Origin: Eimeria necatrix
Taxonomy: Eukaryota; Apicomplexa; Conoidasida; Eucoccidiorida; Eimeriidae
NCBI RefSeq assembly: GCF_000499385.1
Contig: NW_013654300.1
Coordinates: 1-17,500, forward strand
Direction: 5' to 3'
DNA length: 17,500 nt
Shown here: one piece after another, positions 91 through 13,700 of the stretch
How positions within the stretch are numbered: position 1 is the stretch's first letter
Layout of the letters: the number at the start of each line of letters is the position of its first letter
The notes under the pieces: generated by a model
The model's input: only the letters and a program-made list of their open reading frames with translations
Told to the model about the DNA's origin: nothing
Databases searched by the model: none
Program-made: the position numbers and the translations under genes

Positions 91-2782
91 GACCCTGCAG
101 CTGCTTCGGAAGTGCTGCGGCTGCTGCTGCGCAGCGGCGAAGAGCCGCAGCAGCTGCTGCGGCTGTTTCAGCGGGGCCGGCGGCACGCAGCTTTTGCTGC
201 GCTGCAGCAGTGCTTCTCGAGGGAGGCGCAAGGTGCTGCTGCTGCTGCTGCTGCTGCTGCTGCTGCTGCTGCTGCAGCAGCAGACGGTGCAGCAGCAGCA
301 GCAGCAGCAGCAGAAGTGGATGTTGTGAAGGAAGTGAGCGCAGCAAGTGCCGACCTGGCGCTGGAAGCAGCGTGCAGCCGGGTGTCTGTACACTACGTGG
401 GGCTGGTGGCAGCAGCAGTGAAGGACTTGTTATTTATTTTTAAATTTATTTCCGTTTTAAAAGAAAAAGAAAAAGAAGAAAGTGAAGAAGCAAAAGACAA
501 GACGGAGGCTGCTGCGCTGCAGCGGGTGCGCGCTGCTGTCGATACAGCTGAAGCAGCAAACCCCACACTGCCTCCAGAAGCAACTCCAACTATTATTTCT
601 TTTATTTCTGCATTATTAGAAGCAGCTTTTTCTCCGCTTTCTGCCATGATTGCTTCCACAGTTCCTGCTGCTGCTGCTGTCGTCAGGGGCACTGCTGCTG
701 TTGTGGCGGCCTTCGAGGCCTCCTGGCAGCCGCTGCTGCCGCTGCAGCTGCAGCAGCAAGCAGCAGCAGCAGCAGCAGCAGCGCAGCAAAACATTCTGCT
801 CGAGGCCGCCGCCCTGGCCTTCAAGCGCGCCTACGCCAAGGTGGCGCAGGAGCTGCACGACTCCACTGCAGCAACGCTGCAGCAGCAGCAGCAGCGCCAG
901 CAGCAGCAGCAGCAGCAGCAGCAGGGAGAGGCCTCCCCCGCAGCTGCTGCGGACTTCTCCCCTGCAGAACTCGAGCTGCTGCTGCGGCAGCAGCACGCAG
1001 CAGCACAAGCTGTTGTGGTTGAGGGCTGCGTGGCTTTGACGGACGCGCAGCAGCTGCTGCAGGGGGCCAGCAGCAGCTGGCGGTCAGCTGCAGCAGCAGG
1101 CGCAGCAGCAGCAGCAGGCGCAGCAGCAGCAGCAGCAGAGGCTGCTGCGCTGGTGCAGCAGCACATCACGCCCTGGGTGTGGGGCCTCTTTGAACTTTTT
1201 GTCCGCCTCGTGGCCGCTATGACAAAAGATGTTCCTGCTGCTTTTAGTGGCTATTCTGAAGTTCTAGAAGATGTTCTCCGAGACTTTTCAGAAACTGAAA
1301 AGCAGCAAATTCTTTTAAATGAAAAAAATCCGCAGCAGCACTGGCTTCCTGCGCAGGTGCGCTGCTGCTGGGGTGTACGTACACCCCGCTGCTGCTGCGC
1401 GTGCACCCGGCTTGCTGCTGCTCTCGCGCCCCGCTGCAGCTTCCTTTCAGTTTATTTATTTATAATTTATTTATAAAATATATATTTACATTAAATTAAA
1501 TTATTATTTGTTATTTGGTGTTTGTTTTCAGGTGGAGGCGACGCTGCGGGCAGCCCTTGCTGCGGACTTGCATGCGCCTGAAACTTCAGGTGTACGTACA
1601 CCGCAGCCCCCGCTGGTCCCAGCGCTGCTTCTGGTGTATCTACACATCGGCCGCAGTCTGCAGCGAACTGGACTTTCGAAGTTGGAAGCAATTGGTTCTG
1701 AACTGTTCCCTTCTTTGAAGGCTGGCTGGCTGAGCAGCAGCAGACCAGCCCCTGCTGCTGCTGCTGCTGCTGCTGCTGCTGCTGCTGCTGCTGCGCCTGC
1801 TGCTGCTGCTGCTGCTGCTGCGCAGGAAAGGCCGCGGGTGCTGCCTGTGGCCCTGCGGCTGCGAGCAGCAACGCAAAGCCTCATGACAGCTTATGTGTTT
1901 ATCCGGGGGCAAGCAGCAGCAGAAGCAACAGTTTCGCTGCTTGCTGCGCAGCACTTGCTGCGCTGCAGTGGCAGCAGCAACAGCAGCAGCAACGGCAGCA
2001 GCAACAGCAGCAGCAATGGCAATGATAGTGGCAGCAACAGTGGCAATAGTGGCGCTGAAGACTGCAGCAAAAGCATGCAATTAGAAGCAGCAGCAAATGA
2101 AAAAGAAGCAAAGTGGGGGCCCCCCGAAAGGGCCTCCGGCTGCTTCCTGCCTCTGATGAAAGTGCTGCAGCACTGCAGCAGCGAACTGGCGCTGCTGCTG
2201 GAGGACGGTGCGCAGCGGCCAGCAGCAGCAGCAGCAGCAGGAGCCGCAGCAGCAGCAGCAGGCGCAGCAGCAGCAGGGGCGCAGGGGGCGGGGGGCGCTG
2301 CTGCTGCTGCTGCTGCTGCGCTGCTGCTGCAGCCGCAGCGGCGGCTGCAGCGGCCCCTGGGCCGGAGAAGGTCCCCCATAGAAAGGGAAATGGAAAGACT
2401 CTTTGCGAGGAAGCAGCGAGTGTTTGCTGCTGCAGCACAGAGCCGCAGCAAAGCTCTGATGGGAGTCTTTCGAATTGCTGCTCGTGCTGCTCTGGAATTC
2501 GTGCGCTGCTGCGTCTACAGCGGCCCCGGGGAGCTGCAGCAGCTGCAGCTGGACTGTGCTGCAGCAGCAGCAGCAGTTCGGGTGTACGTACACCCCGAGG
2601 ACGCTGCTGTCGTCGACGGCTTCTTCGACGAAATCGCGGCCTGCGCGGCGCTGCGGTGTACAGGCAGCTCCGCGGGGTGTACGTACACCTCGCCGCTGGC
2701 GCTGCTGCTGAGCGAAACGGAGCTCGAGGCCCTCTTGGCTCGAGACAAAAACGTTTATCTTTTTCCGGACTCGCAGCAGTAG
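1..2782 (+). CDS. VPS51: VPS51-like GARP/EARP tethering subunit, 3' part (5' end outside window)
   Basis: Two exons are visible: 1-1356, open from the first base, and 1532-2782, ending in TAG at 2780-2782; the junction is phase 0. The C-terminus carries the VPS51-family pattern: SPIEREMERLF, then ALEFVRCCVYSGPGELQQLQ followed by LDC, then FFDEIAACAALRC. VPS51 is known to scaffold the GARP and EARP complexes, which tether endosome-derived vesicles at the trans-Golgi network and recycling endosomes. The visible part has 451 + 417 codons (including the stop), inflated by poly-Ala at about 232-312, 755-783, 1090-1137 and 1756-1821, poly-Gln at about 878-923, and a Ser/Asn run at about 1971-2040. 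Three copies of the GGTGTACGTACACC palindrome are coding (1589, 2581, 2676). The N-terminal Vps51 domain is not in the window. Family assignment rests on my reading of the C-terminal pattern; the middle of the protein is too repeat-rich to align by eye, and small extra introns there cannot be excluded. Confidence 0.75.
1357..1531 (+). other. Intron of the VPS51-like gene
   Basis: The donor is CAG|GTGCGC at 1357 and the acceptor is TTTTCAG ending at 1531, with an AT-rich second half. Both flanking exons are in phase 0. An 18-bp perfect palindrome with the TGTACGTACA core sits at 1370-1387, only 13 nt inside the donor. Confidence 0.8.
1370..1387. repeat. TGTACGTACA palindrome copy, intronic (VPS51-like gene)
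   Basis: Perfect 18-bp inverted repeat, GGGG-TGTACGTACA-CCCC, close to the 5' splice site of the intron. Confidence 0.95.
1589..1602. repeat. Palindrome copy in coding sequence, GVRTP frame
   Basis: Exact GGTGTACGTACACC within exon 2 of the VPS51-like gene, translated as GVRTP between LHAPETS and QPPLVPALLL. The reading frame is kept on both sides. Confidence 0.9.
2581..2594. repeat. Palindrome copy in coding sequence, VYVHP frame
   Basis: Exact 14-mer in the conserved C-terminal region of the VPS51-like gene, translated as VYVHP between the LDC motif and FFDE. Little extra length is evident relative to the family, so the palindrome seems to overlap family positions here. Confidence 0.9.
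2676..2689. repeat. Palindrome copy in coding sequence, CTYT frame
   Basis: Exact 14-mer translated as GCTYT directly after the conserved AALRC of the VPS51-like protein and before PLALLLSETELEALL. A partial copy (GGTGTACAGG) lies about 20 nt upstream, at 2655-2664. Confidence 0.9.

Positions 2783-13700: not shown

Follow-up and report, generated by a model that had tools for sequence, protein, structure and literature searches.

The window analysed here, the first 17,500 nucleotides of Eimeria necatrix contig NW_013654300.1 (contig C658 of the assembly), carries 16 exact copies of a 14-bp palindrome, GGTGTACGTACACC, which recurs by the thousand in the genome. In our judgement there is about an even chance that this is a eukaryotic highly iterated palindrome, i.e. 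a recognition site of ~20–22 bp composed of two inverted half-sites. The argument for this reading is built on what was demonstrated for the number of copies, their consensus, their largely modular halves, their indifference to reading frame, the equal length of homologous proteins at the best-aligned exonic sites and the clustering of the copies.

The first-pass annotation of the window had listed 16 exact copies, and all 16/16 were recovered (Table 1); dinucleotide shuffling of the window, carried out 200 times, produced no match. A genome-wide count near random expectation, which the first-pass annotation had named as a refutation, is not what the assembly shows. Its 44,016,600 bases (44.0 Mb in 1,148 contigs) hold 2,413 exact copies where uniform bases predict ~0.16, and this and the other assembly counts are lower bounds because parts of the assembly read N. 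The reversed 14-mer, also a palindrome and of equal composition, has 0 copies assembly-wide, as has GTGGTACGTACCAC, in which the outer bases are permuted around an unchanged palindrome core. The inner TGTACGTACA occurs 3,778 times (reversed control 66), and the 8-mer GTACGTAC 4,078 times, with 3,778 of these 4,078 lying inside TGTACGTACA. The reversed 8-mer control, CATGCATG, reaches 7,454, a high count that is probably caused by overlap with the known TGCATGCA motif.

The true repeat unit is longer than 14 bp and is a degenerate palindromic consensus of ~20–22 bp. The 20-bp unit YSVGGTGTACGTACACCBSR is fitted by 2,033 of the 2,413 exact copies (~84%), against ~3.5% for random equal-base flanks. 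Loci fetched for closer analysis comprised 20 stretches of 10 kb (7 near known copies and 13 blind, several partly or wholly masked), and further 15 short stretches around listed copies and eight stretches of 8 kb. Together with the window and three other loci, the 10-kb and the short stretches supplied 82 exact copies for a test of the flanks, from which array neighbours <60 bp apart were dropped, leaving 58 copies (116 flanks). Outward from the palindrome the first base is A in 1/116 flanks, the second C or G in 113/116 and the third A or G in 109/116; read in this direction the half-site is GTACACC, not A, C/G, A/G and often G. Matches are also present in the viral contig collection (the 14-mer in at least 120 stretches, the 20-mer in 11); these are taken as chance, and 104 de-arrayed viral copies used as a flank control lack the consensus of the parasite. 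Six viral stretches (L008, L010, L015, L058, L059 and L060) contain the 14-mer palindrome in pairs at a 23-base offset; these are unrelated to the parasite and perhaps phage operators.

It had been suggested from the window alone that the symmetry continues into the flanks differently from copy to copy. This stands as a description, but in the 58 de-arrayed copies the pairing of left and right flanks beat shuffled pairing (p<0.05) at one position in ten, the fourth (p 0.025), and symmetric extensions of 4 bases were slightly in excess (4 versus 1.7). The differing symmetries therefore arise mainly because each side draws independently on one degenerate half-site. Before removal of array neighbours, 3/10 flank positions (4, 6 and 9) of the 82 copies exceeded shuffled pairs at p<0.05. 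Flanks copied through a hairpin are unsupported, as only position 4 covaries once these neighbours are removed.

The named degenerate relatives are likewise present in the window, that at 10845 with five mismatches, and further variants with ≤3 mismatches start at 381, 1633, 11354 and 14479. Over 175,803 unmasked bases (window plus the first 20 stretches) we counted 57 exact, 24 one-mismatch, 21 two-mismatch and 23 three-mismatch sites, and one-mismatch sites number 1,927 genome-wide. A wider fetched set, with 86 exact copies, has 26 one-mismatch variants, and 21 of them are changed in one of the outer two half-positions, where position 2 changes G>C in 13/13 cases and position 1 G>A in 7/8. 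Changes so concentrated at the ends and so specific in base are not as expected from random decay. Three forms of the centre are common in 239,803 bases: ACGT at 83 sites, ACAG/CTGT at 20 and ACAT/ATGT at 14. The mixed-half form with the ACAG/CTGT centre, GGTGTACAGACACC, lies two changes away from the palindrome and has 1,189 copies genome-wide (565 and 624 in the two orientations, against 2 and 0 for the reversed control); the double form, GGTGTCTAGACACC, has 59 (control 3). Mixed sites are thus many and double sites fewer than expected, which makes the halves largely, though not perfectly, modular.

The stated spread of copies over exons, introns and spacer is supported: three are in homologue-backed exons of the + strand gene at the beginning of the window, one is in its predicted intron, three lie past its stop codon, and the others have putative assignments (Table 1). 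The three exonic copies of this one gene use all three reading frames, which suggests that the motif acts as DNA and not as peptide. The relative P0001 shows 50% identity in the first exon, as far as aligned, and P0002–P0004 are 52–55% identical to the second. At 2581 the window protein reads RVYVHPED against RVYVQTED, RELVQPED and RELVQPED with no gap; at 2676 CTYT is aligned with VLEG, RTEN and RTDN, and the window protein is shorter nearby by 9, 2 and 1 residues. Where relatives extend over one of these sites, none encodes the exact motif there (three at 2581 and at 2676, two at 1589, over which P0004 does not extend). A dynein heavy chain also contains an exact copy (L127:8280) and aligns there without a gap to the outer-arm dynein chain 7k58_B. 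At the best-aligned exonic sites (2 exact copies and 3 variants) homologous proteins are of equal length, which argues against insertion there, and since the partners at the dynein copy and at the 7838 variant are distant proteins, an old insertion common to close relatives is no explanation for these two.

Copies are clustered on two scales. They form tandem arrays with unit spacings of 17 to ~31 bp, and regionally the window has ~17 times the genome mean (16 versus 0.96 copies per 17.5 kb), while on the 97.8-kb contig C1 21 of 22 TGTACGTACA fall within the first 36.5 kb. Six 8-kb stretches (L166–L171) hold no copy, but they were chosen where no copy was listed and so are not independent evidence of clustering. 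The window also contains CAG blocks, AAACCCT repeats and TGCATGCA octamers. A tie of the palindrome to such repeat-rich segments is at most suggestive, and the CAG results conflict. The 13 blind stretches give 46 usable 2-kb bins, with 7 copies in the 21 that are CAG-rich and 13 in the 25 that are CAG-poor; when L166–L171 are added to the blind stretches (70 bins in all), 5/17 bins with ≥60 CAG words contain any copy versus 3/53 of the others (Fisher p 0.017), at a threshold picked after the table was seen. Rank correlation between copies and CAG density is not significant (0.09 and 0.14), and TGCATGCA correlates with copies (0.31, p 0.004) in a larger set, part of which was selected for lying near copies.

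Two further arrangements were seen in the fetched stretches. L172:2423-2801 is a tandem array of degenerate CTCAGGTGTATAGGCACCT-type units with two exact palindromes among them, possibly decaying or half-formed, and at L133:8633-8945 the flank of the 8633 variant returns reverse-complemented at 8943, giving an inverted repeat with palindrome variants.

These data can be joined in a provisional mechanism. Palindrome copies would have formed at least partly in place by base substitutions and multiplied locally through tandem duplication. The long degenerate dyad, the largely modular halves, the specific variants and the lack of frame preference point to recognition by a dimeric protein, and a dimeric sequence-specific DNA-binding protein may read the palindrome. 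The first candidate would be an ApiAP2 factor (22 AP2 domains score above cut-off in the genome) or an Eimeria relative of Plasmodium PFG; according to PMC10945693, Plasmodium PFG and AP2-FG bind the ten-base TGTRNNYACA, and an E. tenella homologue of PFG is reported. Such a site could work by local density and not by exact position, with chromatin or nuclear organisation a more likely role than that of a classical promoter element, and its copies may be kept exact by selection or recognition-biased repair. The idea of the first-pass annotation that a protein-binding site had multiplied is thus the best fit to the degenerate 20–22 bp consensus, the largely interchangeable half-sites and the specific variants, with the binder itself putative. 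Only tentatively, and as something rather doubtful, do we extend this to a HIP-like (highly iterated palindrome) or CTCF-like palindromic code. It would consist of thousands of position-independent binding sites that evolve inside exons at amino-acid cost; selection or recognition-biased repair would preserve their exact form, and the sites would serve to organise chromatin or recombination across banded domains of the genome.

Several points weigh against recognition of a highly iterated palindrome as set out above. The binder and the function of the palindrome are inferred throughout. Few exonic sites could be aligned, and at 2581, where P0002 reads VYVQ, a near-motif may be ancestral. The alignment at 1589 is ambiguous, the window protein having 4 residues more than P0002 and 1 more than P0003 with the gaps placed upstream. 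The copy at 8880 is in a linker and may be compatible with insertion, a copy in a WD40 protein (L155:278) is uncertain by ~1 residue, and a homologue search with the dynein exon found none. The sample of fetched loci is biased towards exact copies. Under independent halves 146 double-B sites are expected and 59 are seen, and TGTRNNYACA words with centres other than ACGT, ATGT and ACAT are not enriched (12 versus 9.0 expected).

The GC clusters and PstI palindromes of fungal mitochondria are mobile mini-palindromes. A mobile mini-palindrome was another proposal of the first-pass annotation. It would here be an element of 14–22 bp, copied into new sites by some transposase or by template switching, and the huge copy number and the local arrays with units of 17 to ~31 bp would suit it; the fungal elements are likewise short and dispersed, but the copies here are nuclear and, where best aligned, lack an insertion signature. 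Self-BLAST of the fetched stretches gave 85 copy-bearing alignments, 76 of which run array to array; the other 9 (five CAG-anchored, one joining two arrays and three within the one degenerate array of L172) were searched for an empty site, and none was convincing. Two of the CAG-anchored alignments do have a 9–10 base gap at the copy, but they are low-complexity and were not accepted as homologous. The 100-bp flanks of 30 solitary copies (copy and 3 bases each side masked) yielded weak matches only, 10 of them in 5 pairs with differing offsets, which are read as simple repeats. No insertion polymorphism with clean boundaries or target duplication was found in these comparisons, and where exonic copies align best the proteins keep their length. 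Two exact copies and three variants lie in coding alignments without a gap, and left and right flanks hardly covary. The mobile element appears already contradicted for the best-aligned exonic copies, and as a general explanation we consider it quite unlikely. For spread by gene conversion, the third proposal of the first-pass annotation, the data speak neither for nor against. It is scarcely credible that the palindrome is an artefact of assembly or library construction, such as an adaptor or linker sequence; a linker would look like a short exact palindrome, but the degenerate consensus flanks, the variants, the open coding frames at many sites and the arrays with differing periods all speak against one.

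A ratchet of mutation and repair without function, in which sequence-specific modification, nicking or biased gene conversion makes and keeps the palindrome, has been proposed for the cyanobacterial HIP1 element, and here it seems rather unlikely while keeping an appreciable chance of being right. The 57 exact sites in 175,803 bases stand against 24 spread across 42 possible one-step neighbours, the exact form also outnumbers one-mismatch sites genome-wide (2,413 versus 1,927), and the deviations are concentrated at the ends, as they are in HIP1 (PMC4390886). However, PF00145, the one methylase family searched, matches at two genome loci, the better of which resembles DNMT2 (1g55_A, E 1.6e-35) with relatives named tRNA methyltransferases, and the 14 CpG-decay centres (ACAT/ATGT) beside 83 intact cores do not point to extensive decay through methylation. 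A flank consensus so long and degenerate would moreover exceed the needs of a short modification site, and a HIP1-style methylation model has weak support here. The second cytosine-methylase-like match is at G000:C837:24894-25187. That the copies are stage-specific factor sites, i.e. cis-elements of an Eimeria PFG/AP2-FG system for sexual-stage genes, is unlikely. The core TGTACGTACA is one of the 64 members of TGTRNNYACA, and the PFG homologue reported for E. tenella (PMC10945693) would fit. Yet the consensus here is longer, copies are found within exons, introns and arrays, and TGTACAGACA, the form second in abundance, falls outside TGTRNNYACA; because the other members are not enriched and the ACAG centres do not fit, the palindrome is not filed as a PFG element. 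The AP2-Z motif, (T/C)(A/C)TG(A/T)AC(A/G) (PMC9394825), has TGTAC in common but disagrees with GGTGTACG in the outer bases.

Table 1. Palindrome copies, variants and host genes in the window
Feature	Position	Strand	Remarks
Host gene	91..2782	+	exons 91-1356, 1532-2782; 5' end cut near contig start
Variant GGTGTCTGTACACT	381..394		exon; RVSVHYV vs RLSAQYV in a relative, ungapped
Exact copy	1372..1385		in predicted intron 1357-1531 of + strand gene
Exact copy	1589..1602		exon, read as GVRTP; alignment ambiguous
Variant GGTGTATCTACACA	1633..1646		exon, LVYLHIG; ungapped vs the two relatives covering the site
Exact copy	2581..2594		exon, read as VYVH; ungapped vs three relatives
Exact copy	2676..2689		exon, read as CTYT; window protein not longer than relatives
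Three exact copies, period 25	2888..2951 (2888, 2913, 2938)		just 3' of stop codon 2780-2782
ABC transporter part, C-subfamily-like, hosting several copies	4034..10357	-	extent approximate
Exact copy	6825..6838		centre of 22-bp perfect palindrome TTCAGGTGTACGTACACCTGAA; open frame, - strand ABC transporter, exon edge uncertain
Variant CCTGTACGTACACC	7568..7581		core intact
Mixed-half variant GGTGTACAGACACC	7684..7697
Variant GCTGTACATACACC	7838..7851		ABC transporter membrane region; ungapped vs ABCC5 chain 8wi2_A
Exact copy	8880..8893		- strand gene, downstream of an ABC ATPase domain; open frame reads GVRTP
Mixed-half variant GGTGTCTGTACACC	9457..9470
Exact copy	10828..10841		probably non-coding or intron
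Variant GGTGCCTAGACACC	10845..10858		five mismatches
Exact copy	11124..11137		probably non-coding or intron
Two exact copies	11733..11788 (11733, 11775)		probably non-coding or intron
Array of three exact copies	13081..13144 (13081, 13107, 13131)
Three variants, 17-base steps	13624..13671 (13624, 13641, 13658)

The relative P0001 of the + strand gene matches PF08700, PF04124 and PF15469 (Pfam), which we take to be vesicle-tethering families, and the second exon gave no Pfam match. The Pfam scan covered 9 window frames and 20 copy-bearing frames (from the best 60 of 129). Besides the ABC transporter of the window, dynein DHC_N1, WD40 and Kri1_C matched above cut-off, and the Kri1_C match does not extend over its copy. 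Rfam had no match in the window, and a search with exon alignment A1 for the DNA of the relatives found none in genome contigs or viral contigs. Within the ABC transporter gene, positions 5280-5940 form a long array of ATGCATGCA-containing units that shift from CTTTGCTGCTGCATGCATGCG to AATTGAAGTTAAATGCATGC units, and ~4976-5052 is a near-perfect inverted repeat, a potential hairpin, whose arms contain GCAATTAGCACAAAATGTGAAAAGCA. Interstitial telomere-like AAACCCT repeats lie at 14860-15080 and an AGCT/TAGC tandem at ~15238-15325.

HIP1 occurs inside genes of cyanobacteria, and in pattern it is the best analogue of the Eimeria palindrome. HIP1 (GCGATCGC) is also palindromic and highly over-represented, with deviations mainly terminal (PMC4390886), and both genome-wide over-representation and single-base deviations concentrated at the ends were found here. 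The Eimeria palindrome differs in belonging to a eukaryotic nuclear genome, in measuring 14–22 bp and not 8, in the degeneracy of its outer consensus, and in forming tandem arrays and regional clusters; the search with PF00145, with two loci of which one is DNMT2-like, identified no clear methyltransferase counterpart. Within Eimeria, the available text on R-segments (PMC3505466) describes a palindromic TGCATGCA octamer and CAG and AGGGTTT repeats, and does not name the palindrome. Like these, the palindrome is a dispersed sequence feature, possibly of repeat-rich Eimeria regions; unlike the octamer it is longer, has a different sequence without the TGCATGCA word, and is not a simple repeat. 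No publication linking the TGTACGTACA motif to Eimeria was found in the one open library searched, where the motif occurs in 8 papers, and we rate a HIP-like motif in a eukaryote as what is new here. To our knowledge, no other long palindrome in a eukaryotic nuclear genome is so over-represented and lies in conserved coding sequence in several frames. If the recognition of a highly iterated palindrome is correct, it would provide a defined DNA handle for the banded genome organisation of Eimeria, and the question posed by HIP1, i.e. whether selection, repair bias or conversion drive maintains such a motif, would become testable in a sexual eukaryote.

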